Shown here: piece by piece, positions 1-16,814 of the stretch
How positions within the stretch are numbered: the stretch's first letter is position 1
How the letters are laid out: each line of letters opens with the position of its first letter
Notes under the pieces: generated by a model
Database searches by the model: none
What the model was told of the DNA's origin: nothing
What the model saw: the letters and a program-made list of their open reading frames with translations, nothing else
Program-made: the position numbers and the translations under genes
NCBI GenBank assembly: GCA_003241815.1
Contig: QBLV01000019.1
Coordinates: 1 to 42,445 of the forward strand
From: Hyphomicrobiales bacterium
GTDB taxonomy: Bacteria; Pseudomonadota; Alphaproteobacteria; Rhizobiales; Beijerinckiaceae
Reading direction: 5' to 3'
DNA length: 42,445 nucleotides

Positions 1-258
1 GCCGTGCTGGCAGGGCAGCAGCGCCGGCATCGCACGCATCGCGCTGGCAAGGGCCGGTTCGGCCAGCATCGGGATGACGGCGAGCAGGACCGGCAGCGCG
101 AAGCGCTCGCCGACATCCGCCAACCGGTCGAGCGCGGGGCTTGGCGCAACGGCATCGTCATCGCGCAACCAGAGACGGATTGTCAGGCCCGCCTCGCTCC
201 AGCGGTCGAGTTCGGCCTGGAGGGGCAGCCAGATGTCGTCGCTCGCGGTGCCGTTCAT
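1..258 (-). CDS. Polysaccharide deacetylase-like protein, N-terminal part (runs off the window edge)
   Basis: Reading the minus strand from ATG at 258 gives MNGTASDDIWLPLQAELDRWSEAGLTIRLWLRDDDAVAPSPALDRLADVGERFALPVLLAVIPMLAEPAL..LPCQHG, resembling NodB-like deacetylase N-termini; start overlaps the end of the upstream GT gene. Confidence 0.6.
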   Translation of the reverse strand, partial: MNGTASDDIWLPLQAELDRWSEAGLTIRLWLRDDDAVAPSPALDRLADVGERFALPVLLAVIPMLAEPALASAMRAMPALLPCQHG

Positions 259-1391
259 GGTGTTTCCGTCCGCATCGGTTTGGACCGCGCGGCGCGGTTG
301 GCGACGGCCAGAGCAAGACCGCGCTCCAGGATCGTCGCCGCCTGCGCCGGGTTGCGCTCACCGAGCGCGAAGTGGCGCGCGGCCCGGCCCATCCTGCCGC
401 GCAAGGCCGCGTCGTCGAGCAGGCGCGACAGTGCTGCCGCCAACGCGACCTCGTCGCCCTCCGGCGCGAGAAGGGCCGTCTCGCCACGGCGAACGGTGGC
501 GGAGACGCCGCCGCTGTCGAAGGCGACGATGGGCAGGCCCACGGCCTGCGCTTCCAGATAAACCAGCCCATAGGCCTCGCGGACACCGGGCCAGATGAAG
601 ATGTCGTGTTCGGCCATTTGCGCGACGACGCTGTCATGGGGAATGGCGCCGCGCCACTGGATCCGGCCGGCCGGCAGTCCGGCAAAGGCCTGCTCGATCT
701 CCGCGCGCTTGCGGCCGTCGCCGATGATCGTCAGCGTCCAGGGTCGGTCGGCGACATGGGCCAGCACGCGGGCGAGGGACAGATAGCTGTTTTGCTTGGT
801 CCCTTCGCGCATCATCGCGGTGGTGACGAGTCGGGGGGCGCCCGTCACGCCGGCCGGTCGCTGCGGCTCGGCTGCGAAAGCGATGAAGGGCGGCAGCTCC
901 ACCAACGCGGTCTGGGCGGAGCGCCAGGGTTCGAGGCCCTGCCGGTCGCGGTCGGTGAAATGCAGATGCAGGTCGGCGGCTGCCAGACCCTCACGGACAA
1001 TCCGGGTATGGGTGGCCCATTCGCCGCTGGCACGGCGCTGCGCATCGCTCGCCTCGGCGACGACGTAGGGGATGCCGAGTCGCGCGGCGATCGCCGGCCC
1101 CAGCAAATCGGGCGCCTTGTAGTAGTTGTGATAGGTGAACCAGAGTTCGGGCGCAGCAGCGCCGCCCTGCCAGCGCGCCAGCATCGCCTCGGTGTGGGCT
1201 GTGGCGGCAACCTGATGCCGGGCCAGCAGTCCGGCGTCGGAGGTCGGCATGAAGTCGCGAGCGGCCAGCACGGGCTCGACGCTGTGTCCGAGCCCTCTCA
1301 GCACCGCCACGAGCTGGCGCGCCATGCGCCGGTCGCCGGAGATGCCGCCGTCGTCATAGGCGTTGAGCGGGGTGTGGAAGGCGATGCGCAC
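255..1391 (-). CDS. Glycosyltransferase family 4 protein
   Basis: 378 aa ORF; GT4-like C-terminal half (AEHDIFIWPGVREAYGLVYLEAQAVGLPIVAFDSGG). Confidence 0.85.
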   Translation of the reverse strand: MRIAFHTPLNAYDDGGISGDRRMARQLVAVLRGLGHSVEPVLAARDFMPTSDAGLLARHQVAATAHTEAMLARWQGGAAAPELWFTYHNYYKAPDLLGPAIAARLGIPYVVAEASDAQRRASGEWATHTRIVREGLAAADLHLHFTDRDRQGLEPWRSAQTALVELPPFIAFAAEPQRPAGVTGAPRLVTTAMMREGTKQNSYLSLARVLAHVADRPWTLTIIGDGRKRAEIEQAFAGLPAGRIQWRGAIPHDSVVAQMAEHDIFIWPGVREAYGLVYLEAQAVGLPIVAFDSGGVSATVRRGETALLAPEGDEVALAAALSRLLDDAALRGRMGRAARHFALGERNPAQAATILERGLALAVANRAARSKPMRTETP

Positions 1392-1424
1392 CGGTCGTTG
1401 GGCTCAAAAACGTCTGCTGACGTC

Positions 1425-2627
1425 TCAGCGGTACGGATCGGCCGCGTCGCGCAGCCCGTCGCCGAGGAAGTTGAAGGCCAGAATGATCAGGATCACGGGC
1501 ACGACCGGATAAAGCAGCCACGGATAGAGCGCCACCACGTTGATGTTCTGCGCTTCGTTGAGCATCACGCCCCAACTCGTGATCGGCGGCCGCAGGCCCA
1601 GCCCCAGAAAGCTCAGCGCCGTCTCGCCGAGAATCGTCTTGGGGATGGTGATGGTCGCCGAGGCGATGAGATGGCTCATGAAGCCGGGCACCAGATGCAG
1701 GCCGATGATGCGGGCGGGTTTGGCTCCCATGAGCTGGGCGGCGACGACATAGTCCTCTTCGCGCAAGGAGAGCAGCTTCGAGCGCACGGCGCGGGCGAGC
1801 CCCGTCCAGTCCATCAGGCCGAGGATGACGGTGATGCCGAAATAGACCAGCAGCGGGCTCCACGAGGGCGGCATGATCGAGGCCAGCGCCAGCCAGAGTG
1901 GGATGTGCGGCAGGGACTGCACGATTTCGATCAGGCGCTGGACGACGAGATCGACCTTGCCGCCGTAATAGCCGGCGATACCGCCGATGATGACGCCGAG
2001 AACGAAAGACACGCCAACGCCGAGCAGGCCAATCGAGAGCGAGATTCGCCCACCATAGAGGATGCGCGAAAGCATGTCCCGGCCGAGGCGATCGGAGCCC
2101 AGGAGGAAGAGCGTCCCGCCTTCCGGTGCGCAGACGAGACGCAGATTGCCCGGAATCATGCCCCAGAAAAGATAGTCGTCGCCGCGGCAGAAGAAGCGCA
2201 GCTTCTGCGGCCTCGTCCGGTCGACATCGTATTCGCGCTTCAAATTCTCCATGTTGAGGCGCTGGACATACGGATAGACGAAGGGCCCGATCAGGCTGCC
2301 ATCATGGAAGAGATGAACCTCCTGACGCGGTGCGCGGATGAAGTCGGTGTTGCGCGTCGTGTAGTGATAGGGGGCGAGGAATTCGGCGAAGGCGGCCGTC
2401 GCGTAGATGATGAGGATGACGACGCCCGAGATCACCGCGAGCCTGTGGCGGCGGAACTTCCACCACATCAATTGCCATTGCGAGGCGAGATAGACGCGCT
2501 CCTGCTCGGGCGTCATCACCTCGACTGCGTTGGGCTCGAAGGGTGCGGTCGATGCCGTATGCGGCAGCGGTGCGCCTTCGGGCGGCAGCGTGATCGTGGA
2601 GGCCTGCGCTTGCAAGATCTGGCTCAC
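1425..2627 (-). CDS. Peptide/oligosaccharide-type ABC transporter permease (DppC/OppC-like)
   Basis: 400 aa; N-terminal OppC-like TM, LLGSDRLGRDMLSRILYGGRISLSIGLLGV and EAA-like loop; overlaps next permease gene by 4 nt. Confidence 0.9.
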   Translation of the reverse strand: MSQILQAQASTITLPPEGAPLPHTASTAPFEPNAVEVMTPEQERVYLASQWQLMWWKFRRHRLAVISGVVILIIYATAAFAEFLAPYHYTTRNTDFIRAPRQEVHLFHDGSLIGPFVYPYVQRLNMENLKREYDVDRTRPQKLRFFCRGDDYLFWGMIPGNLRLVCAPEGGTLFLLGSDRLGRDMLSRILYGGRISLSIGLLGVGVSFVLGVIIGGIAGYYGGKVDLVVQRLIEIVQSLPHIPLWLALASIMPPSWSPLLVYFGITVILGLMDWTGLARAVRSKLLSLREEDYVVAAQLMGAKPARIIGLHLVPGFMSHLIASATITIPKTILGETALSFLGLGLRPPITSWGVMLNEAQNINVVALYPWLLYPVVPVILIILAFNFLGDGLRDAADPYR

Positions 2628-3625
2628 TTGGTCGCCGCCCCCTGGAGACGGATGCGCGGATCCAGGATCGCAAGCGCGATGTCCGAGATCAGCACGCCGA
2701 TCACGGTCAGGAAGGACAGGAACATCAGGAAGGAGCCGGCGAGATACATGTCCTGGCTCTGCAGGGCGCGGATCAGCAGCGGCCCGGTCGTCTGCAACGA
2801 CAGCACGATCGCAACGATCTCAGCGCCCGACACGATCGAGGGCAGGATGTCGCCGATATCAGAGACGAAGAAGTTGAGCGACATGCGCAGCGGATATTTG
2901 CGTAGCGCCTTGCCGGGCGGCAGGCCCTTGGCGCGGGCGGTGACGTAATATTGCTTCTGGAGTTCGTCGAGCAGATTGGCCCGGACCGAGCGGATCATGC
3001 CGGCCGTGCCGCCGGCGCCGATGATGATCACAGGGATCCAGAGGTGCTCCAGCACCGAGGCCGCCTTGGCCCAGCTCATCGGCTGGTTGAGATATTGCGG
3101 GTCGACCAGCCCGCCGATCGACGTGCCGAACCAGACATTCGCCATGTACATGAAGACCAGCGCCAGCAGGAAATGCGGCACGGCGAGCCCGATCAGCCCG
3201 ACGAAGGTCAGGCCGTAATCGCCCCAGCTATACTGATGCGTCGCCGAATAGATCCCGATCGGAAAGGCGACGATCCAGGTGAAGATAATCGTGAAGAACG
3301 AGACGATCATGGTCAGCATCAGCCGGTCGCCGACGATCTCCCGCACCGGACGCTGATACTCGAAGGAGTAACCCATATCGCCCTGGAGCAGCCCGGTGAC
3401 CCACCAGAAATAGCGCTCGTGCACGGGCTTGTCGAAGCCGTACTCCTTCTTAAGGAACTCGATGCGCGACATATCGGCCTTCTCGCCCTGCGCCTGCATC
3501 TCGGCGGCGAGCGTCTCGAAATAATCGCCCTCGGGCAGGTTGATCACGGTGAAAATCAGCGCACTCGTGATGAGCAGCGTCGGGATCATCACCAGGATGC
3601 GCTTGAGGATATATTTCAGCAGCAC
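2624..3625 (-). CDS. Peptide/oligosaccharide-type ABC transporter permease (DppB/OppB-like)
   Basis: 333 aa; MLLKYILKRILVMIPTLLITSALIF N-terminus and VRANLLDELQKQYYVTARAKGL motif typical of DppB. Confidence 0.9.
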   Translation of the reverse strand: MLLKYILKRILVMIPTLLITSALIFTVINLPEGDYFETLAAEMQAQGEKADMSRIEFLKKEYGFDKPVHERYFWWVTGLLQGDMGYSFEYQRPVREIVGDRLMLTMIVSFFTIIFTWIVAFPIGIYSATHQYSWGDYGLTFVGLIGLAVPHFLLALVFMYMANVWFGTSIGGLVDPQYLNQPMSWAKAASVLEHLWIPVIIIGAGGTAGMIRSVRANLLDELQKQYYVTARAKGLPPGKALRKYPLRMSLNFFVSDIGDILPSIVSGAEIVAIVLSLQTTGPLLIRALQSQDMYLAGSFLMFLSFLTVIGVLISDIALAILDPRIRLQGAATK

Positions 3626-3628
3626 GGG

Positions 3629-5641
3629 TCAGCTCTTCGCCTTGTCTGGAGTAGCGGCGTCAGATCCGGCGGTCTTGGCCGTATCGAACCAGAAGGTGTC
3701 GGGCATGTAGCGGCCGAAGAAGGCGCCGGGCTCGAAACTGTAGAGCCCCTTCTGCGGCACATTGCGCAGGTTGCGCGAGACGACGACCGGTTGCAGCGTG
3801 CCGTTGACGACGCCGATCGCGAAAAGCTGCTCGGCATTGATCTGGAGCATGCGCTGCCAGATCTGCCGTCGCTGCTCATGCGTGGCGCTGGCCCGCCACT
3901 CTTTGTAAAGCGCGACGAGTTCGCGAACCTCCGGCACGTCCGGCTCCTCGCCCTCGCGGCCGCCGGTTTCGAGGAACTGCCCCCAGCGCGGCCAGTTGAA
4001 CTGCGCCGAACTGGTCGGCGCCAGCGCCTCAGGCTCCATATCCGCCGAGACCAGCCCGTTATCCATGCCCGCCCAGGCCGACATGATGGTCTGGCCGGCG
4101 ACGATGCGGCGGCGGAAGACGTCGCGCTGCGTCGAGCGCGGATAGATCTTGATGCCGACGGCGTAGAGATCCTGCTTGATCAGGTCGAGGATGTCGGTCT
4201 CCTCGGTACTCTCGCCGGCGGTCTCGATCGTGAATTCGAGCCTGCGTCCGTCAGGCAGCAGGCGGATCCCGTCGGTGTCGCGCTTGGTCAGGCCGGCCTC
4301 GTCGAGGAGTTTGGCGGCAAGCGCGGGATCGTGCTGCATCCACATCTGCGCATAATCGGCATTGTAGAGCGGGCTTTCTGGCAGGGCGGTGTTGCCGCTT
4401 TCCTTGGCGAGGCCGAAGAAGATGACCTTGTTGATGTCGTTGCGGTTGATCGCGACCGACAACGCCTTGCGATAGCGCAGATCGCGGTTGAGATCGCGCC
4501 AGACCGGGTCGATCGCGTTCATATTGGGCATCAGGGCGAAATAGGAGCCTTCCGCCCGCTTCCACAGCCGGACGTCGAAGTTCATCCGCTTCGAGGCATC
4601 CTTCAGGAACGTGTAGTTGTCGAAGCGCAGATAGCGCGCCTGGAGATCGGCCTCGCCGGCCGCAGCCTTGGCCGGAACGAGCGAGTTGGTGCCGACCGTC
4701 AGCGTGGTTTCGTCGACATAGGGCAACTGCCGGCCGTTCTGGTCGACGCGGTGGAAATAGGCATTGCGCTGGAAGGTGAACTGTTCGGCCGGCAGCGGCG
4801 TGGTGTTGCGCCAGGGATCCAGCGTCGGCAGATCTGGATTTTCGGGGCGATACATGCGCGAGAGCCGTTCGTGAAGCGCGCCCCAGTCTCGGACGCGGGC
4901 CTGCTTGACGCGCGAATGCAGGGTTACCGGATCGGCGTGGTCGATGTGGAACTGCTTCAGATAGCCCGACGGCATGCAGATATAGGTCGGTTGCGCGCCG
5001 GCGAGGGAGGGCAGGAAGATCGGGTTCGGCTTGGCCCAACTGTAGCGGATCTCGGTCTCGCTCAAGACCTCGAAGACCGGGGGTTCGCCACCGGCGAGCA
5101 GGGCCTGGGGCGGGCCGCCGGGAGACAGGCGCCTGTTGTTGGCGACACTGACCCACCAGTAGCGGAAATCCTCCGCCGTAAAGGGCGATCCGTCTGACCA
5201 GCGATGCCCGGGACGGAGCCGGAGCGTGAAGATGCGGCCGTCCTTCTCCTCGTAGCTTTCGAGCACGTCGGGCACGATGTCGAGGTTCTGATCGTAGCCG
5301 ACGAGGCGCGTATAGCCGTAGAGCGTCATCATGCGGATGTCGCGCTGGTCCCCCATCAGCATGCGCATCGTGCCGCCATGGCGGCCGGGCTCGCGCCCCT
5401 CGCCCGACACCTCGACGATGCGGGGCGTCGCCGGCAGGCGCTGGGCGATTGCCGGCAAGGTTCCCGCTGCGACCTGTTGCGCGAAGAAGGGACTGTCGAT
5501 CCATTCTGTCGGGCGGGCGGTGGCCGCTGGCGCGAGCCGCGGCAGGCCCAGCGAGGCGAGGGCGGCCGAGCCCAGCATCAGGGCATCGCGGCGGGTCGGA
5601 CGAGACGAGCGTCGCCGGGTCATCGCCCCTTCTCCCAGCAT
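3629..5641 (-). CDS. ABC transporter extracellular solute-binding protein, family 5 (SBP_bac_5-like), TAT-type signal
   Basis: ORF continues upstream to 5755, but ATG at 5641 (overlapping the stop of the upstream ATPase gene) or ATG at 5623 before TRRRSSRPTRRDALMLGSAALASLGL is more plausible; W(S)DGSPFTAEDFRYWW is a family 5 hallmark. Confidence 0.85.
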   Translation of the reverse strand: MLGEGAMTRRRSSRPTRRDALMLGSAALASLGLPRLAPAATARPTEWIDSPFFAQQVAAGTLPAIAQRLPATPRIVEVSGEGREPGRHGGTMRMLMGDQRDIRMMTLYGYTRLVGYDQNLDIVPDVLESYEEKDGRIFTLRLRPGHRWSDGSPFTAEDFRYWWVSVANNRRLSPGGPPQALLAGGEPPVFEVLSETEIRYSWAKPNPIFLPSLAGAQPTYICMPSGYLKQFHIDHADPVTLHSRVKQARVRDWGALHERLSRMYRPENPDLPTLDPWRNTTPLPAEQFTFQRNAYFHRVDQNGRQLPYVDETTLTVGTNSLVPAKAAAGEADLQARYLRFDNYTFLKDASKRMNFDVRLWKRAEGSYFALMPNMNAIDPVWRDLNRDLRYRKALSVAINRNDINKVIFFGLAKESGNTALPESPLYNADYAQMWMQHDPALAAKLLDEAGLTKRDTDGIRLLPDGRRLEFTIETAGESTEETDILDLIKQDLYAVGIKIYPRSTQRDVFRRRIVAGQTIMSAWAGMDNGLVSADMEPEALAPTSSAQFNWPRWGQFLETGGREGEEPDVPEVRELVALYKEWRASATHEQRRQIWQRMLQINAEQLFAIGVVNGTLQPVVVSRNLRNVPQKGLYSFEPGAFFGRYMPDTFWFDTAKTAGSDAATPDKAKS

Positions 5642-7524
5642 CACGCCATCTCCCGGACATCGGCGCCTGGGCGGGCGAGGACGAAATGCCCGTCGCCGAG
5701 CGGCAGATGCGTCAGCGCCTCGCCTTCGGGATCGCGCCTGAAGGCCGGCGCCCAATGCGTGGCGTCGGAGGCGCCGCCCGGCGCGGCGAGCTTGAAGTCG
5801 AGCTTGCGGTCGAGATCGGCGAAGGGCACCGATTTGAGCAGCGCCCGCGTGTAGGGGTGCATCGGCTTGGAGAACAGCGCGTGGCGCGGCGCGATCTCGA
5901 CGATCTTGCCGTTGGCCATGACCGCGATGCGGTCGGCCATGTAGTTCACCACGGCGAGGTTGTGCGAGATGAACAGGAAGGTCAGCCCGCGCTCGGCCTG
6001 CAGGTCCTTGAGCAGGTTGAGGATCTGCGCCTGGACCGAGACGTCGAGCGCCGAGACCGGCTCGTCGCAGATGATCAGATCGGGGTCGAGAGCGAGCGCC
6101 CGGGCGATGCCGATGCGCTGGCGCTGGCCGCCGGAGAAGGAGTGGGGGTAGCGGTTGAGGAAGCGGACATCGAGTCCGACATCCTCCATCAGCGCTTTCA
6201 CCCGCGCGGTCTGCTCGCTGCCGCTGCCCTTGCCGTGGACGACCAGGGGTTCGCGCAGGATGTTCATCACGGTCATGCGCGGCGAGAGCGAGGAGACCGG
6301 GTCCTGGAAGATCATCTGGACGCGGGGGCGGAAGGCGCGCAGCTCCTCGCCATCGAGACCGAGGACATCGATCTTGGCGCGGCCGTCATCGAAGCGGATC
6401 GTGCCCGCATCGGGGGTGACGGCGCGCATGATGATCTTGCTGACGGTCGTCTTGCCGCAGCCGCTTTCGCCGACGAGGCCAAGGCATTCGCCACGCCGGA
6501 TGTCGAAGCCGACATCGTCGACCGCCAGCACCGTCTGTTGCGTGCCCTTGCCGAAGAAACTGCGCGAGCCGGTGGTGTAGGCCTTGCGCAGGCCGCGCAC
6601 GCTGAGCAGCGGGGCGGCTTCGGCCGAGGTGCCCGGCGACGGGACGGGGCGAGGGACTGCGGCGGGGCGTGGCCTGGCTTCGCGCAGCGCCACCAGCCGC
6701 TCGCCCTCTGCCATGTCGAAATGCGGCGAAGCCTTGAGCAGGGCCTTGAGATAGGGGTGGCGCGGGCGGCGGAAGATGTCCTCGACCGGGCCGCTTTCCA
6801 TGATCTCGCCGTGATAGATGACCACGACCTCGTCGGCCATGTTGGCGACGACGCCAAGATCATGGGTGATCAGCAGGATCGCCATGCCCATCTCGGCCTG
6901 GAGGTCGCGCATCAGGTCGAGCACCTGGGCCTGGATGGTGACGTCGAGCGCGGTGGTCGGTTCGTCGGCGATCAGCAGCGCCGGCTGGCAGATCAGCGCC
7001 ATGGCCAGCATGGCGCGCTGGCGCAGGCCGCCTGACAGCTCGAAGGAATAGAGCCCGAAGGCGCGGGCCGGGTCCTTGAAGCCGACGCGGCCCAGCATCG
7101 CCTCGATCAGGCCGCGTGCTTCCGGCTTCGACATCGGCCGATGCAGCAGCAGCGCTTCCTCGATCTGGTTGCCGATGGTGTGGACCGGCGAAAGCGAGGA
7201 CATCGGCTCCTGGAAGATCATGCCGATGCGCCCGCCGCGTAGCGAACGGATCTCCTTGCCTTCCGCCGGCAGGCTCGCGATATCGATCGGGTTCTCGGGT
7301 GCCAGCGGGTCGCGGAACAGAATCTCGCCGCCGGTGATGGCGCCGGCGCGCGGCAGCAGCCCCATGATCGCCTGCGATATCACGGACTTTCCGGAGCCGG
7401 ACTCACCGACAAGCGCGACCGTCTTGCCGGCGGGAACGCGCAGGCTGACGCCCTTCACGACATCGCGAGCGAGCCCGTGAATGGTGAAGCCGAGATGCAA
7501 ATCGCTGATCCGCAGGATGTCCAT
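5641..7524 (-). CDS. Fused double-ATPase ABC transporter ATP-binding protein (DppD-DppF-like)
   Basis: 627 aa with two complete NBDs: GESGSGKS ... LSGGLRQR ... [12 protein letters not shown] and GESGCGKT ... FSGGQRQR ... [12 protein letters not shown]. Confidence 0.93.
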
Positions 7525-7819: not shown

Positions 7820-10612
7820 ATGTTGATCCCAGGTCAGAAGACGGGCGCGCTGCTGGCGCGCCGGACAGGATATTCGTTGGAGACCAACCTCTTTCGTTAT
7901 GTCTGGGAGAAGAGCCGCGGCGACCAGATCATCGTCCTGCTGATCATCCTTGCCTCGATCCCGTTCTACTGGGCGTCGTTCGACGTCCCGAAGCGGATCG
8001 TCAACGATGCCATCCAGGGCGGCGCGTTCAAGGATGGCAAGACCAGCACGACACTGCTGGATTTCACGCTGCATCTGCCCTCCTTTCTCGGCGGCACCAG
8101 CTTCAAGCTGTTCGAGGGGTTCCAGGTCGGCCAACTCGGCCTGCTGCTGGGGCTGAGCTTCTATTTCCTCGTCCTGGTGCTGATCAACGGCGCCTTCAAA
8201 TACGTCATCAACCTGCGAAAGGGCATTCTCGGCGAGCGCATGCTCAGGCGCATGCGCTACGATCTGTTCGGCCAGCTCATGAGATTCCGGCCGGAGGATA
8301 TCCGCGCGGTCAAGCCGGCTGAGGTCGCCAGCATGATCAAGGACGAGGTCGAGCCGATCGGTGGCTTCGTCGGCGACGCCTTCATCCAGCCGGTTTTCCT
8401 GCTGAGCCAGGCCCTGACGGCGCTCGCCTTCATCATGGTGCAAAGCGTCTGGCTGGGGTCGATCGCGCTCATGATCGTGCTGGCTCAGGCGATCATCATC
8501 CCGATCCTGCGCCGGGAGCAGTTGCGCCTCGGGCGCGAGCGGCAGATCGCCTCGCGCCAGCTTGCGGGCCGCATCGGCGAGATCGTCGATGCTGGTCCCA
8601 CGATCCAGGCGCACGGCGCGACGAGCTATGTCCAGTCCGACATCGCCGGGCGGCTGGGGCGGCTCTTCGACATCCGCTACGCGCTCTACAAGCGCAAATT
8701 CGCCGTCAAGTTCCTGAACAATCTGCTGGCCCAGATCACGCCATTCTTCTTCTATGCGGTCGGCGGCTTTTTCGCGCTGCAGGGTCGGCTGGACATCGGC
8801 CAGCTCGTCGCCGTCATCGCCGCCTATCGGGACTTGCCGCCGCCGATCAAGGAACTCATCGACTGGGACCAGCAGCGCAACGACGTGACGATCAAATACG
8901 AACAGGTGATCGCCCAGTTCAACACCGACGAGACTCTCGATCTCAACGAGGCGGACGGCGTCACGCGCTTGGCCGAGACCGGAGAGATCAGGTTCGACGG
9001 CGTGCAGATGCTCGACAATCGTGGTCAGCCCCTGCTGACGCCGCTGTCTGTCCGGATCGCGCGACCCGGAACCGTCGCGGTGATCGGCCCTCATGGCGGG
9101 GCGCTTGAAGTGCTTGGCCGCATCCTGGGCCGGCAGTCGATGAGCTACTCCGGCCGCGTCATCATTGACGGCGCGCCCTTGTCGCGTATGTCGGTCGAGC
9201 GGGCGAGCCATCTGATCGGCTATGCCGGCAACGAGACCGAGATCATCGCGGGCACGATCCGCGACAATATTCTGCTGCCGCTGATGCGGCGCAGGCCGAG
9301 TATTCGGCCCAAAGGCAAGGTCACGACTGCCGAGCACTATCGCTTCGTCGAGGCGATCCGCTCCGGCAACACGCCGTTGCCGTTCGAGGCGGACTGGACC
9401 GATTACGAGGGCGCCGGCATCGCCGATGACGCCGCCCTGGCGGCTCGCGTCAGGTCCGTGCTCGACGTGCTCGGCTGCGCGGAGGATGTCTACGAGCTCG
9501 GCCTCGACGGGAAAGTCACCGCATCGCTGCGCGCCGAGGCCAAGGCGCAGATCGTCGAGGCGCGCCAGGCCGTTGCCCAGGAACTCGACCGTAGCAAGCT
9601 TGCGGGGCTGATCACGCCCTTTGATCCGGCCAGCTTCAATGCCAATGCCACGATCGCCGAGAACCTGATCTTCGGCGCCCGCATGGGGCCGCGCTTCGCC
9701 AACGAAACCCTGCTGTTCGAGCCCTATGCGTATGCAATTCTCGAGGCGGAGGCGCTGATCGAGCCCCTGGTCGAGGTCGGCTCACGCATCGCCGCGACCG
9801 TCGTCGAAATCTTCGCCGGGCTGCCGCAGGGCCATGCGCTGTTCGAGCGCTACTCGTTCGCCTCCGGGCTCGACCTCGACAGGCTCGGTGAACTCGCGAC
9901 GCTGCTCAACAAGCACGACATGCGCGCGCCCCTCGACGCCGGGGCGGAGCGCGATCTGGTCGCGCTGGCGCTGGGCTATATCGAGCCCAAGCATCGGCTC
10001 AACCTGCTGGACGAGCGCCTGCAGCGGAGGATTCTGCGGGCCCGCGGGAGCTTCAAGGCGCATCTCCCGGCGGACGCAGCCGAGGACGTCCACTTTTACG
10101 ACCCCGACACGGTCATGCTCGGGGCCAGCCTGCGCGATAATCTGATGTTCGGGCGCATCGGTTACGGCATCGCCGATGCCAACCGGAAGGTTGCGGCGAT
10201 CGTGCGCAAGGCGCTGGCGCGGGCGGGGCTCGACGGCGATCTCTATCGGATCGGCCTCAACACCGATTGCGGCATTCGGGGGCGCTTCCTGCCGACGAGG
10301 ATGAAGCTCGCGGTGCCGCTGGCGCAGGCCCTGATCAAGGCGCCGCAGATCGCCGTGCTGGATGTCGGCGCTTTCCTGGCGACGTCGGCGGAGCCCGACA
10401 AGGTTCTGGCCCGTCTGCGCGAACACTGCGCCGGCATGACACTGTTCCTTCTCGTCGGGGATGCTAGTCTTGTCGCTGACATGCCGATGCGGATCGTCTT
10501 CAACGGCCCGTCCGGAACGATCGAGAGCGAAGACGGGGAGGATGCCAGCGAAGCTGCCACCGCTCCTTCCCGACGGCGCAATGGCGTCCAACAGATGGAG
10601 GCGCGGCCATGA
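7820..10612 (+). CDS. ABC exporter-like membrane protein with degenerate nucleotide-binding domain(s)
   Basis: 930 aa; ABC transmembrane domain (about residues 1-350) followed by NBD-like region whose Walker A (GPHGGALE), Q-loop, signature (FLPTRM), Walker B (IAVLDVGAF) and H-loop are all non-canonical. Confidence 0.85.
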   Translation: MLIPGQKTGALLARRTGYSLETNLFRYVWEKSRGDQIIVLLIILASIPFYWASFDVPKRIVNDAIQGGAFKDGKTSTTLLDFTLHLPSFLGGTSFKLFEGFQVGQLGLLLGLSFYFLVLVLINGAFKYVINLRKGILGERMLRRMRYDLFGQLMRFRPEDIRAVKPAEVASMIKDEVEPIGGFVGDAFIQPVFLLSQALTALAFIMVQSVWLGSIALMIVLAQAIIIPILRREQLRLGRERQIASRQLAGRIGEIVDAGPTIQAHGATSYVQSDIAGRLGRLFDIRYALYKRKFAVKFLNNLLAQITPFFFYAVGGFFALQGRLDIGQLVAVIAAYRDLPPPIKELIDWDQQRNDVTIKYEQVIAQFNTDETLDLNEADGVTRLAETGEIRFDGVQMLDNRGQPLLTPLSVRIARPGTVAVIGPHGGALEVLGRILGRQSMSYSGRVIIDGAPLSRMSVERASHLIGYAGNETEIIAGTIRDNILLPLMRRRPSIRPKGKVTTAEHYRFVEAIRSGNTPLPFEADWTDYEGAGIADDAALAARVRSVLDVLGCAEDVYELGLDGKVTASLRAEAKAQIVEARQAVAQELDRSKLAGLITPFDPASFNANATIAENLIFGARMGPRFANETLLFEPYAYAILEAEALIEPLVEVGSRIAATVVEIFAGLPQGHALFERYSFASGLDLDRLGELATLLNKHDMRAPLDAGAERDLVALALGYIEPKHRLNLLDERLQRRILRARGSFKAHLPADAAEDVHFYDPDTVMLGASLRDNLMFGRIGYGIADANRKVAAIVRKALARAGLDGDLYRIGLNTDCGIRGRFLPTRMKLAVPLAQALIKAPQIAVLDVGAFLATSAEPDKVLARLREHCAGMTLFLLVGDASLVADMPMRIVFNGPSGTIESEDGEDASEAATAPSRRRNGVQQMEARP

Positions 10613-11058
10613 CACTCGAAGCCGATATAGCCTGCCTGGGCCGTCTTCCGCTATTCCGGTCGCTGCCGCCGCCGCGGCTGAAGCTCGTCGCACTGATGGG
10701 CGAGAAGCTACGCTTCGAAGCCGGCGCGCAGATCGTCGAGGAGGGCGAGAAGCCGGCGGGGGTCTATGTCGTCCTGCAGGGCGAGGTCGAGATTGGGCAT
10801 AAGCGCCCCAATGAAGAGGGTACGCGGTTGCAGCTCAACTCAGGCAGCCTGATCGGAGACGTGCCGCTCCTGTCCGGGCACAGCTATGTCGGCGCGGTCA
10901 CGGCCAAAAGCGCGGTCAGCGCGCTGCTCCTGCCGAAGGACCTGTTCTTCGAACTGCTCGAGACGATTCCCGATTTCAGCCTGGCGCTGTCGCGGGACCT
11001 TGCCTCGCGGCTGTACCGGCTGGCCGATTTCACGCTGCACGGGGAGAGGGTCCATTGA
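10609..11058 (+). CDS. Stand-alone cyclic nucleotide-binding-domain-like protein (Crp fold without HTH)
   Basis: 149 aa; LPLFRSLPPPRLKLVALMGEKLRFEAGAQIVEEGEKPAGVYVVLQGEVEI and LIGDVPLLSG; ATGA overlap with the upstream gene. Confidence 0.88.
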   Translation: MTLEADIACLGRLPLFRSLPPPRLKLVALMGEKLRFEAGAQIVEEGEKPAGVYVVLQGEVEIGHKRPNEEGTRLQLNSGSLIGDVPLLSGHSYVGAVTAKSAVSALLLPKDLFFELLETIPDFSLALSRDLASRLYRLADFTLHGERVH

Positions 11059-11074: not shown

Positions 11075-13039
11075 ATGAGCCTGCAGCAGACGGCCGGCGC
11101 GCGGCGTTCGGGCATGGGCATGGATCACGTCTCGTCGTGGAGCCGCGATATCCGCTTCGCGTCGGGCATGGTGCTGCTTTTCTTCGCGACGACGCATTTC
11201 CTCAACCATGCTGTGGGCATCGCCGGCGTCGCCGCCATGGAGCAGGCGCAGGAGTGGCGTTACTGGCTGTGGCATTCCTGGGCCGGAACGGTTGCGCTTT
11301 ACGGCTCGCTGGTGGTGCATCCGTTCTTCGCGCTCGTCCGTGTCGCGCAGCGCCGCACCTTCAAGATGCCGGCGCGTGAGATGCTGCAGATTGCGCTGGG
11401 CCTTGCGATCCCGCTGTTCCTGGTCGATCACATCGTCGGGACGCGGGTGATGGGCAGCTTCTTCGATTCAGATGAAAGCTATCGCGCCGTCCTGCGTCGG
11501 CTCTGGCCCGGCCTGGTGGCGGGCCAGACGATCCTGCTGTTGCTGGTCTGGGTGCATGGCATTATCGGTCTGCATTTCACGCTTCGCTCACGCGACGGCT
11601 ACCACCGCTGGCGTGATCCCTTCCTGCTCGCCGCGATCCTGATTCCCGTCCTGGCGCTGATCGGATTTGCAGTGGGAGGGCGCGAGGCCGGCCAGATGGC
11701 GATGGCGCCCGAGTTCACCACCGACGCGCAAATCGTGATGTTTAACCAGAACGTGACCTGGGCGAAGACCATCTTCTACGGTCTCGTTGGTGGCTTCGTC
11801 GCTTTCGTGGGCATCCGCGAGATCAGGGTCAGGACTACGCGGCAGATCACGGTGCGCTTCGTCGGCCATGGCGTGCGCAAACTCGCGCCGGGCCTGACCG
11901 TGCTGGAGATGTTCCGGCGCTTCGGCATTCCTCACGCCGCGCTCTGCGGCGGGCGGGCGCGCTGCGCCACCTGCCGCGTGCTGGTGCTGGACGGAGCTGA
12001 CAAGCTGCCGGCTCCCGGCGTGAACGAAGCCAGGCTGCTGCGCCGGATTTCGGCGCCCGAGCGGGTGCGCCTTGCCTGCCAGATCAGGCCGCGCGACGAG
12101 TTGCAGGTCCAGATCCTGCTCGCATCGAGGCTGCGGGTTGCGACGTCCGGCGAGGCCGAACTCGATGCCAGCGTCGGCAAGCGCGGCCTGACGGTCGTCG
12201 TGGCTGATCTGCGCGCCTTCTCCGCCTTGTCCGAACGCCAGCTTCCTCAGGAGTTGATCGGCCTGCTCAACCGGTTCTTCGACGAGATGGCGCAGGCGAT
12301 CTCGGCTCATGGCGGGCGCATAGACGCCTTCTATGGCGACGGCTTCATGGCCGTGTTCGGGTTGGACGGCACTCCGGCCCGGGGCGCGCAGGCGGCGATC
12401 GCTTCAGCCGGCGATATCGTGCGCGCGGTCGAGGCTCTGAACCGGGAATTCGGCGCGGCCCTGCCATTGCCGCTGCGCATCGGTATCGGCATCCATAGCG
12501 GCCAGGCGATCACCGGCGCCGTCGAGAACGACAGTCTCGGCCGCCGCGAGATCACGGTTGGCCAAACCGTGGCGGTGGCAGGCCAGCTCGAGTTGGCAAC
12601 GCGGCGGGTGCTGGCCGATATCCTCGTGTCGGAAGAGACGATTCGGACGAGCGGACGCCGCTATCGCGGCACGACGCAGCTCAAGATTGCGATCCGGGGG
12701 CGCGAGAAGCCCCTCAATGCGGTCGGTTTCGCCAGCGCGCCAGAGATCGCCGACGTCGAGGGCGGGGAAGAAGCCGCTGATGCACATGATGCGCCGATCA
12801 CGGCAGACCTCGTCGACGCAGACCTCGTTGCAGCAGGCCCGGACGAGGCAGATCCGGGGGTCGTCGAGGGCGCCGATGGCGTCACGCGGGTCGCCGGGCC
12901 GCAGGAGGATGTCCTGTCGGTCGTGGCGCGCGGGCAGGCCGCGTCGCCTGACGACCTCCCTCCGGCGAAGGCTCGAAGGTCACCGCGCAGGAAGGCTGTG
13001 GCGATGAAGACCGATGTCCCTGGTCAAGACGGACCTTGA
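11075..13039 (+). CDS. Membrane-anchored 2Fe-2S ferredoxin / class III adenylate-guanylate cyclase-like protein
   Basis: ORF opens at 10886 but ATG at 11075 follows the previous stop; multiple His-containing TM helices, then CGGRARCATC-x34-C ferredoxin-type cysteines, then VVVADLRAFSAL...RIDAFYGDGFMAVFG cyclase domain. Confidence 0.88.
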   Translation: MSLQQTAGARRSGMGMDHVSSWSRDIRFASGMVLLFFATTHFLNHAVGIAGVAAMEQAQEWRYWLWHSWAGTVALYGSLVVHPFFALVRVAQRRTFKMPAREMLQIALGLAIPLFLVDHIVGTRVMGSFFDSDESYRAVLRRLWPGLVAGQTILLLLVWVHGIIGLHFTLRSRDGYHRWRDPFLLAAILIPVLALIGFAVGGREAGQMAMAPEFTTDAQIVMFNQNVTWAKTIFYGLVGGFVAFVGIREIRVRTTRQITVRFVGHGVRKLAPGLTVLEMFRRFGIPHAALCGGRARCATCRVLVLDGADKLPAPGVNEARLLRRISAPERVRLACQIRPRDELQVQILLASRLRVATSGEAELDASVGKRGLTVVVADLRAFSALSERQLPQELIGLLNRFFDEMAQAISAHGGRIDAFYGDGFMAVFGLDGTPARGAQAAIASAGDIVRAVEALNREFGAALPLPLRIGIGIHSGQAITGAVENDSLGRREITVGQTVAVAGQLELATRRVLADILVSEETIRTSGRRYRGTTQLKIAIRGREKPLNAVGFASAPEIADVEGGEEAADAHDAPITADLVDADLVAAGPDEADPGVVEGADGVTRVAGPQEDVLSVVARGQAASPDDLPPAKARRSPRRKAVAMKTDVPGQDGP

Positions 13040-13675: not shown

Positions 13676-14338
13676 ATGACACGCGCCACGCCTCCCGACG
13701 CCTTCTATGACATTCTGCGCGGCGTCGCAGCCCTCACCGGCAACGGCGTGGTGGCCGATCTCGCGCGCCTCGTCGCGGACGACATGCCGCCGGATCTCTG
13801 GATCGCGTTCAACCACAAGCAGATCGGCTCGAAGCGCTGGCTGGTCGATGCACTCGCGCAGGTGATGCCGCAACCTCATGGGCCGGTCTGGGTTCTCGGC
13901 GCCTGGTATGGCGTGCTCGGCGCGCTGCTGCTCGACGATAAGAGGCTGGCGATCCCTGCGGTCGTCAGTGTCGATCTCGATCCGGCTTGCGCTGATGTGG
14001 CCGAGCGTCTGAACCGCCGGCATGTCGCGGCCGGGCGCTTTTCTGCCGTCACCGCCGATATGATGACGCTGGATTTCGCCGCCGGGGACCCGGCGCCGGG
14101 CCTCGTCATCAACACGAGCTGCGAGCATCTCGCGGACGTTCCGGGCTGGCTTGCGACGCTGCCGCGCGGCATGCCCGTGCTGCTGCAATCGAACGACTAT
14201 GTCCGCGAGCCCGACCATCGCAGCTGCGTGGCCTCGCTCGAGGCCTTCAAGGATCAGGCAGGTCTGTCGGAGACGCTGTTTGCCGGCGCGCTTCCCACGA
14301 AGAACTACACGCGCTTCATGCTGATCGGCCGGCGATGA
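13676..14338 (+). CDS. Class I SAM methyltransferase-like protein
   Basis: 220 aa; VWVLGAWYGVLGALL ... VVSVDLDPACADVAERLN ... LVINTSCEHLADVPGW. Confidence 0.65.
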   Translation: MTRATPPDAFYDILRGVAALTGNGVVADLARLVADDMPPDLWIAFNHKQIGSKRWLVDALAQVMPQPHGPVWVLGAWYGVLGALLLDDKRLAIPAVVSVDLDPACADVAERLNRRHVAAGRFSAVTADMMTLDFAAGDPAPGLVINTSCEHLADVPGWLATLPRGMPVLLQSNDYVREPDHRSCVASLEAFKDQAGLSETLFAGALPTKNYTRFMLIGRR

Positions 14339-15597
14339 GTGCGTCGCCTCGGCCCGGAAACGAACCGCGCATCGCGATTGCGATGAAGGGCTATCCGCGT
14401 CTGTCGGAGACCTTCATCGCGCAGGAGCTGCTCGGCCTGCAGCAGCGCGGCCTGCCTTTCGCGATCTGGTCGCTGCGCCGGCCCACCGACGTGGCGCGGC
14501 ATCTGATGCACAACCAGATCACGGCGCCTGTGAGCTATCTGCCGGAATATCTGCATGAGGAGCCGGTGCGGGTGTTGCGTGGCGTGCTGCGGGCGTTGCT
14601 GCGGCCGGGTTTCGCGCGGTTGCTGCCGGCTTTCCTGCGCGATCTTGCCCGCGACGCGACGCGCAACCGTTTGCGCCGCTTCGGCCAGGCCTGCGTCATG
14701 GGGCGCGAGCTGCCGGCGGAGATCACGCATCTGCATGTGCATTATCTGCATACGCCGGCCTCGGTGATCCGTTATGCGGCGCTGCTGCGCGGTCTGAGCT
14801 GGTCGTTCTCGGCCCATGCCAAGGACATCTGGACGACGCCGGATTGGGAAAAGCGCGAAAAGATCGCGGGCGCACAATGGGGTGTAACCTGCACGCAGGA
14901 CGGCCATCGCGAGCTCGAGCGCCTCGCCGACCGGGCGGACAAGGTCAATCTCGTCTACCACGGGCTCGATCTGGAACGCTTTCCGGCGCCGCCCCTGCGC
15001 CCGGCGCGCGACGGCACTGACGCCGCCGATCCGGTGCGCTTCGTCACGGTCGGCCGCGCGGTCGAGAAAAAGGGCTTCGACGATCTGCTGGCGGCGCTGG
15101 CGAAGCTGCCCTCCGGCCTGCATTGGCGCCTGACCCATATCGGTGGCGGCGAGAGGCTGAAGGCCTTGCAGGCTCAAGCTGAAACTCTGGATCTTGCCGA
15201 GCGCGTCACCTGGGCGGGACCGAAGGCGCAGGGCGAGGTCATAGCCGCGTTGCGCGCGGCCGATCTGTTCGTGCTGCCCTCCCGGCAGGCCGGAGACGGC
15301 GACCGCGACGGCCTGCCCAATGTGGTGATGGAGGCGGCGAGCCAGAGCCTGCCGATCGTCGCGACCGATTTTGCCGGCATTCCCGAATTCGTGCGGGAGG
15401 GGATCGAGGGGGTGCTGGTTGCGCCCGGCGACGTCGATGCGTTGGCCGCCGCGCTGGCCGATCTCGCACGGGCCCCCGATCGGCGGGAGAGCCTGGGACG
15501 GTCGGCCCATCAGCGGCTGACCGACACATTCGCGGCCGCCGCCGGGCTCGACGCGATCGCGGCCCGTTTGCGTGCCTCCGCCGGGCTGGCGCCATGA
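14335..15597 (+). CDS. Glycosyltransferase family 4 protein (colanic-acid-type)
   Basis: 420 aa; YPRLSETFIAQELLGLQQRG, HLHVHYLHTPASVIRYAALL, FVTVGRAVEKKGFDDLLAAL, RDGLPNVVMEAASQSLPIVATDFAGIPE. Confidence 0.92.
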   Translation: MSASPRPGNEPRIAIAMKGYPRLSETFIAQELLGLQQRGLPFAIWSLRRPTDVARHLMHNQITAPVSYLPEYLHEEPVRVLRGVLRALLRPGFARLLPAFLRDLARDATRNRLRRFGQACVMGRELPAEITHLHVHYLHTPASVIRYAALLRGLSWSFSAHAKDIWTTPDWEKREKIAGAQWGVTCTQDGHRELERLADRADKVNLVYHGLDLERFPAPPLRPARDGTDAADPVRFVTVGRAVEKKGFDDLLAALAKLPSGLHWRLTHIGGGERLKALQAQAETLDLAERVTWAGPKAQGEVIAALRAADLFVLPSRQAGDGDRDGLPNVVMEAASQSLPIVATDFAGIPEFVREGIEGVLVAPGDVDALAAALADLARAPDRRESLGRSAHQRLTDTFAAAAGLDAIAARLRASAGLAP

Positions 15598-16814
15598 ACG
15601 CGACCGCCATGAGCGCGACCGCGCTGATAGCCGTCACCCATCTGCTCGGCAGTGGGCATCTGGTGCGGGCCATGCATCTGGCCCGGGCGTTGGCGGAGGA
15701 TGGCTTTCGCGTCACGCTCGCCAGCGGCGGCATGCCGTTGCGGGCCACCGCGGACGAGCCCTTCGCCTTCGTGCAACTGCCGCCGGTCAAGGTCGAGGGC
15801 GTCGATTTCCGCAACCTTCTCGACGAGGAGGGGATGCCGATCGAGGCCTCGCGGCGGGAGGCCCGGCAGGGCCTGCTTCGCGAACTGGCGGCCTCGATCG
15901 TGCCGGACGTTGTCGTCACCGAACATTTTCCGTTCGGGCGCCGGCAACTGGCCGATGAATTCCTCGGGTTGATCGCCGCCGCGCGGGCTGCCAATCCGCA
16001 CGCGCTGGTGCTGTCATCCGTGCGGGACGTGCTGGTGACGCCGCGTCTTGACCGAATCGCTGAGGCCGAGCGGCGGCTGGCCGAGCTGTTCGAGGGCGTG
16101 CTGGTCCATGGCGACCGCGCTTTCCTGCCGCTGGATGCGTCATGGCCCGTCTCGCCTGCGCTTGCGGCGCGGCTGCATTACACGGGGTATCTGGCTCCTT
16201 CGTCATTGCGAGCGGAACGGAGCAATCCAGAAGGTCTTGCTCTACGTCCCCCTGGATTGCTTCGCTCCGCTCGCAATGACGGATCGGGCGAGATCCTCGT
16301 CTCCGGCGGCGGGTCGGGAGCGGCGCTGCCGTTGTTTCAGCTCTGCCTCGAGGCGGCGCGGCTTGGCGATCCCTCCTGGCGCTGGCGGATTCTCGCCGGG
16401 CGCGGTCTCTCCGAGCGCGATTTCGCCGCACTGCGGCAATCGGCCTCGCCAAACGTCACCGTCGAGCGAGCGCGCTCTGATTTTCCGGAGCTGCTGTCGC
16501 GCTGCGTACTGTCGATCAGCCAGGCCGGCTACAACACGGTGCTCGATCTCGTCGAGGCGCGCTGTCGCGCCATCGTCGTGCCTTTCGACGAGGGCGCCGA
16601 AACCGAGCAGGGGATACGCGCGGAGGCGCTGGAGCGGGCCGGATTGGCGCGTTGCATGCGGCTTTCGGGGCCGCAAGCCGCTTCGTCGGCGTCCTTCGCG
16701 GCCGCGGTCGCCACGGCTTTGGCCGATGACGCTCCGGCCTGCGCGGCGATCGATCGTGATGGCGCGGGACAGGTCTGCGCCCTCGTGAAGCGGTTGCTGG
16801 AGCAGCGCGGCTGA
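15594..16814 (+). CDS. MurG/GT28-like glycosyltransferase, interrupted in frame by a palindromic repeat
   Basis: 406 aa; THLLGSGHLVRAMHLARALAEDGFRVTLASGG and C-terminal SISQAGYNTVLDLVEARCRAIVVPF typical of GT28 C-terminal domain; ATGA-type overlap with the previous gene. Confidence 0.82.
   Translation: MNATAMSATALIAVTHLLGSGHLVRAMHLARALAEDGFRVTLASGGMPLRATADEPFAFVQLPPVKVEGVDFRNLLDEEGMPIEASRREARQGLLRELAASIVPDVVVTEHFPFGRRQLADEFLGLIAAARAANPHALVLSSVRDVLVTPRLDRIAEAERRLAELFEGVLVHGDRAFLPLDASWPVSPALAARLHYTGYLAPSSLRAERSNPEGLALRPPGLLRSARNDGSGEILVSGGGSGAALPLFQLCLEAARLGDPSWRWRILAGRGLSERDFAALRQSASPNVTVERARSDFPELLSRCVLSISQAGYNTVLDLVEARCRAIVVPFDEGAETEQGIRAEALERAGLARCMRLSGPQAASSASFAAAVATALADDAPACAAIDRDGAGQVCALVKRLLEQRG
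16201..16281. repeat. 81-bp palindromic repeat (cgtcattgcgagcgg..ctggattgcttcgctccgctcgcaatgacg) inside a CDS
   Basis: 30-nt arms 16201-16230 and 16252-16281 are inverted repeats with 28/30 identity; total length divisible by 3. Confidence 0.92.

Follow-up and report, generated by a model that had tools for sequence, protein, structure and literature searches.

A Bosea genome encodes an ABC exporter-like protein of 930 amino acids (positions 7820-10612, + strand), hereafter called pseudo-ABC, in which all five ATP-site motifs of the nucleotide-binding domain (NBD) are altered. All positions refer to the window, i.e. the whole stretch of 42,445 nucleotides that was analysed. The fold of the protein, its loss of catalytic residues, the selection acting on it, its internal repeats, and its genetic linkage and fusion to a cyclic-nucleotide-binding (CNB) partner were established by computation. 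The ATP sites in Bosea are very probably non-functional, and pseudo-ABC is most likely no pump; the lost catalytic residues do not strictly exclude residual activity. With slightly better than even confidence, we lean towards a receptor or gate that works independently of ATP, with the pseudo-NBD coupling the membrane domain to the CNB partner.

The first-pass annotation had described an intact exporter-like protein with a recognisable ABC membrane domain and with all NBD motifs degenerate. The reading frame is indeed uninterrupted from the ATG at 7820 to the stop at 10612, and its third-position GC content is 86%. The membrane domain was recognised by Pfam (PF00664, 2.4e-12) as the only Pfam domain of the chain. 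PF00005 was absent even at E<=1, and Pfam detected neither a CNB nor a C39 peptidase domain on this chain. All motif strings quoted by the annotation were found where it had placed them, and an alignment with BmrA pairs them with its five ATP-site motifs (Walker A, Q-loop, signature, Walker B and H-loop). In the Walker A motif (GPHGGALE, amino acids 423-430; 9086-9109, +), the reported replacement of Lys by Leu429 was accompanied by a further one, of Ser/Thr by Glu430. The Q-loop (GYAGNETEI, amino acids 467-475; 9218-9244, +) carries Asn471 instead of Gln, and the LSGGQ signature has become LPTRM (FLPTRM, amino acids 823-828; 10286-10303, +). The catalytic Glu of Walker B (IAVLDVGAF, amino acids 844-852; 10349-10375, +) is replaced by Val849, and the His of the H-loop (FLLVGDASL, amino acids 876-884; 10445-10471, +) by Gly880. 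Only the word 'all' was slightly too strong, in that every motif is altered but the Walker B Asp (Asp848) is retained. The PF00664 match, the fold matches and the loss of catalytic residues both here and throughout the family support the general picture of a degenerate NBD in an exporter-like protein.

Only one other segment of the protein matched a Walker A pattern (GAFKDGKT, amino acids 68-75). This segment belongs to the loop that follows transmembrane helix 1, outside the NBD, and relatives do not conserve its Lys; the claim of a degenerate Walker A therefore stands. Chance or assembly error was rejected as an explanation of the losses, because they are shared by 47 unique Bosea orthologs with partial exceptions for the Walker A Lys, kept in 13 of the 47, and the Q-loop Gln, kept in three. 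Both Pro825 at the signature Ser position and the Walker B Asp are found in 47/47, while the catalytic Glu and the H-loop His are both missing from all of them.

Full-length relatives of pseudo-ABC share 68-92% identity within Bosea and 29-50% elsewhere in the Alphaproteobacteria. Of 289 Alphaproteobacteria genomes sampled, 98 contained the family according to a profile search, and in a sample of the phylum (n = 299) all 25 matches fell within that class and none outside it. A viral origin was rejected, as viral contigs yielded no match. The complete eight-residue ATP site was present in none of the 158 unique relatives. Retention was 53 for the Walker A Lys, 14 for Ser/Thr, 19 for the Q-loop Gln, 49 for the signature Ser, 11 for the signature Gly, 89 for the Walker B Asp, 27 for the catalytic Glu and 17 for the H-loop His. 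Mapped onto a tree built from the membrane domain alone, the catalytic residues change state 8-20 times each (Lys 12, signature Ser 20, Walker B Asp 16, Glu 13, His 10, Gln 10); this was a quick tree with 28 of its 87 inner branches weakly supported, so these counts are approximate. Judged from so many changes, the loss of residues is repeated, independent and graded; it is also family-wide. Some members may still bind nucleotide weakly, given that about one third of the relatives keep the Lys and that the best-preserved member (L118) keeps six of the eight residues.

Several observations on individual members of the family are added here. Bosea genomes often contain a second pseudo-ABC paralog (L045-L055), which has a C-terminally fused CNB domain with the Arg kept. 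Proteins from genomes of a related genus (L185-L188, L193) match the profile of the family chiefly in the NBD and in the insertion described below, and their membrane part has diverged. The copy of S. meliloti 1021 (L002) matches in two pieces with an open frame of 805 codons, and is maybe frameshifted in that record. In the literature searched, which left subscription papers outside its coverage, we found no description of the family, of its gene cluster or of pseudo-ABC exporters.

Structure prediction recovered both the exporter fold and the NBD fold. The AlphaFold model of pseudo-ABC, based on an alignment of 70 sequences, had a mean pLDDT of 79.7 and a pTM of 0.72, and it places a strand-rich loop (amino acids ~66-104) after the first transmembrane helix. 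In a structure search, the model matched ABC exporters with Z about 24, and SUR2 was among the matches. The pseudo-NBD (amino acids 381-911) matched the ComA NBD with Z 23.9 over 230 residues at 3.4 A. BmrA and other exporters align to amino acids 96-490 and, separately, to amino acids ~760-890, which implies that the NBD of pseudo-ABC is split. Its halves are separated by an insertion of ~265 amino acids (491-755; 9290-10084, +) that the first-pass annotation did not mention. Profile comparisons revealed repeats of the NBD helical subdomain in this insertion and distinguished three segments related to one another, R1, R2 and R3. The profiles of R2 and R3 matched with a score of 68.7 (column-shuffled maximum 21.3), those of R1 and R3 with 47.2 (column-shuffled maximum 18.3), and the canonical NBD was matched by R3 with 73.0 and by R1 with 41.3. 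The direct match of R2 to the canonical NBD was weak (19.9 versus a shuffled maximum of 17.8), and the kinship of R2 to the NBD hence rests on R3. This kinship among the profiles indicates that the insertion arose, at least partly, when the N-terminal portion of the helical subdomain in the NBD was repeated.

The retained NBD fold, the invariant Walker B Asp in Bosea and the presence of the Walker A Lys in part of the family are compatible with an NBD that binds ATP or another nucleotide without hydrolysis, and thereby regulates pseudo-ABC in the manner of the sulfonylurea receptor (SUR). The latter, itself an ABC protein, serves as the regulator of a Kir channel and binds nucleotide at each of its two sites (PMC9700523). 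The use of an ABC exporter architecture for a non-pumping job, as in SUR1/SUR2 and CFTR, would be shared by pseudo-ABC, and we treat this likeness as a working analogy only. Unlike SUR1/SUR2, however, which retain nucleotide binding at both sites, pseudo-ABC has lost both the Lys and the Ser/Thr of Walker A. The Leu and Glu at the positions of Lys and Ser/Thr put an acid at the place of the phosphate, and an acid at the Ser/Thr position (Asp or Glu) is the family norm (121 of the 158 unique relatives). We consider regulation by bound nucleotide rather unlikely.

The next alternative is that pseudo-ABC forms the degenerate half of a heterodimeric exporter and supports transport, while an active half encoded elsewhere hydrolyses ATP. 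Ordinary exporters are present in the same Bosea genome, and it is common for heterodimeric exporters to have one degenerate site (PMC7756269). TM287/288, TAP and BmrCD resemble pseudo-ABC in that some NBD residues are non-canonical although the exporter is otherwise intact. Yet exporters of this kind retain one competent site, and a site is complete only with the signature contributed by the opposite subunit (PMC7756269). In contrast, pseudo-ABC has lost the Walker A/B side as well as the signature, with Pro in every Bosea ortholog, so any partner would be left without a complete site. Furthermore, no exporter-type open reading frame recurred beside pseudo-ABC in a neighbourhood survey that covered 41 diverse loci, each spanning about 14-24 kb, and an adjacent heterodimer partner was rejected on this ground. 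We consider the heterodimer improbable.

The survey of the 41 loci revealed a recurrent set of other neighbours. Three glycosyltransferases are encoded in the window: a GT4 enzyme (14335-15597, +), a GT28_C enzyme (15594-16814, +) and a second GT4-type enzyme, GTa (255-1391, - strand); their genes occurred in 29, 26 and 25 of the 41 loci, respectively. An Opp-type importer (1425-7524, -) consists of OppC (1425-2627, -), OppB (2624-3625, -), SBP_bac_5 (3629-5755, -) and OppDF (5641-7524, -), the last of which occurred in 22 of the 41 loci. In Rhizobium sp. NLR16a, the genes lie on one strand in the order cyclase, OppDF, SBP, OppB, OppC, three glycosyltransferases, pseudo-ABC and CNB. The recurrence of glycosyltransferases, together with the conservation of the membrane domain, could mean that pseudo-ABC acts passively, as a flippase or channel through which a glycolipid or oligosaccharide produced by these enzymes would pass. 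This proposal is, however, no less improbable than a heterodimer, as several loci, including loci with a fused CNB, have no glycosyltransferases nearby. We found no description of a cluster composed of an Opp importer, glycosyltransferases, pseudo-ABC and CNB (255-7524 and 13676-16814 in the window; loci L194-L234). A further gene downstream of the cyclase in Bosea (13676-14338) gave a weak methyltransferase match (0.11), and has relatives in L002, L223 and L058.

Comparison with eight Bosea orthologs yielded dN/dS ratios of 0.12-0.22 for pseudo-ABC overall, 0.07-0.13 for the membrane domain and 0.08-0.27 for the parts of the NBD. These ratios indicate that the gene is under purifying selection. 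The membrane domain (amino acids 20-370; 7877-8929, +) is the most conserved part of the family, and invariant residues are concentrated there. Family alignment A1 contained 3.00 bits per column in the membrane domain, 2.11 in NBD-N, 2.09 in the insertion and 1.94 in NBD-C. Identities were compared in genomes that also encode a canonical exporter, which was used as a control. In the control, the membrane domain (90.3% identity) and the NBD (90.4%) were equally well conserved, whereas in pseudo-ABC the membrane domain (90.0%) is far better conserved than NBD-N, the insertion and NBD-C (75.5%, 71.3% and 71.4%, respectively). By these measures, the NBD has come under weaker constraint but has not escaped it. 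A decaying relic heading to a pseudogene, as the graded loss of residues and occasional members with a stop (e.g. L100) might suggest, is extremely improbable and was ruled out by the low dN/dS, the 185 full-length open frames among the relatives and the clustering of invariant residues in the membrane domain.

Pseudo-ABC resembles the homodimeric type I (type IV fold) exporters BmrA, MsbA and ComA/PCAT1 in its six-helix membrane domain and its NBD fold, and has a sequence match to BmrA. It differs from these exporters in the lost catalytic residues, in the repeat insertion within its NBD, and in the stronger conservation of the membrane domain than of the NBD.

The start of a gene encoding a CNB protein of 149 amino acids (10609-11058, +; PF00027, 4.9e-14) overlaps the stop of pseudo-ABC by 4 nt. 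A CNB was found in 40 of the 41 diverse loci; 36 of them have a gene of its own for it, and in the other four it is fused to the C terminus of pseudo-ABC. The link between the CNB partner and pseudo-ABC is thus supported by gene linkage and fusion, which are indirect evidence for a physical complex of the two proteins. In the CNB protein of the window, the phosphate-binding Arg is replaced by Tyr and the Glu by Asp. Alignments showed that the phosphate-contacting Arg is missing from all 71 Bosea rows (Tyr in 36, Phe in 27, others in the remainder) and that the Glu is Asp in all 71, near-identical genomes being included among these rows. Outside Bosea, the Arg was kept in 55 of 57 rows, and the Glu likewise in 55 of 57. 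An ABC exporter tied to a CNB domain has a precedent in HetC of Nostoc, a CNB-containing peptidase ABC exporter whose CNB domain is required for function and whose ATPase is essential (PMC10986499). CNB control of an ABC exporter would therefore not be new, but HetC has an N-terminal CNB and a C39 peptidase, whereas in pseudo-ABC the CNB is separate or fused C-terminally, the peptidase is absent and the ATPase is probably dead.

The cyclase gene starts 16 nt after the CNB gene in the window, and a cyclase gene was found near pseudo-ABC in 11 of the 41 loci. It encodes a predicted membrane-anchored heme/2Fe-2S class III cyclase-like protein of 654 amino acids (11075-13039, +; PF00111, PF00211). 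His 41, 82, 119 and 161 and Cys 291, 297 and 300 are invariant (61/61), and Cys 335 is nearly so (60/61). Its match to SdhC-b558 was weak (2.3e-4) and below the cut-off of that model, and a structure search gave a match over the cyclase domain only. In Bosea, the metal Asp residues of the cyclase are kept, and the Lys, Asn and Arg are lost in the rows that cover them; the cyclases of L109 and L110 keep all catalytic residues. The invariance of His and Cys and the loss of catalytic residues indicate that in Bosea the predicted redox sensor is likely intact and the output chemistry likely not. By description rather than by alignment, the protein is comparable to CyaC, a quinone-responsive cyclase (PMC10463352), in having a predicted membrane anchor with conserved His and a class III cyclase domain. 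Unlike CyaC, it also has a 2Fe-2S domain, and in Bosea it has lost the catalytic Asn, Arg and Lys.

For the receptor or gate that we favour, we infer CNB binding, a ligand, gating, signalling and the absence of ATP turnover, which might be combined as follows. The membrane domain would bind a ligand, perhaps a glycan or a lipid-linked product of the neighbouring glycosyltransferases, or would form a gated path. Docking and transmission would fall to the pseudo-NBD and its repeated helical subdomain, and the CNB protein would bind the pseudo-NBD and set or read its conformation. Since most members of the family have a CNB that keeps its cyclic-nucleotide residues, the controlling ligand there would be cAMP or a related nucleotide instead of ATP. 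In Bosea, where both CNB and cyclase have lost key residues but the heme-type His and the Cys of the 2Fe-2S domain remain, the assembly would instead work by protein contacts and redox state. Only tentatively do we extend this to a widespread alphaproteobacterial ATP-free sensor or gate, in which the NBD has become a repeat-expanded CNB adaptor and which in Bosea forms a redox-controlled trio of pseudo-proteins.

ABC exporters are defined by ATP-driven cycling, and known exceptions such as SUR and CFTR still bind nucleotide. A family that occurs in about one third of the sampled Alphaproteobacteria without complete ATP sites, yet under purifying selection, would allow a test of what role an ABC scaffold can have without ATP. 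Members of this family are misleadingly labelled by annotations like 'ABC transporter ATP-binding protein', and pseudo-ABC would hint at what a conserved gene cluster that has no name does.
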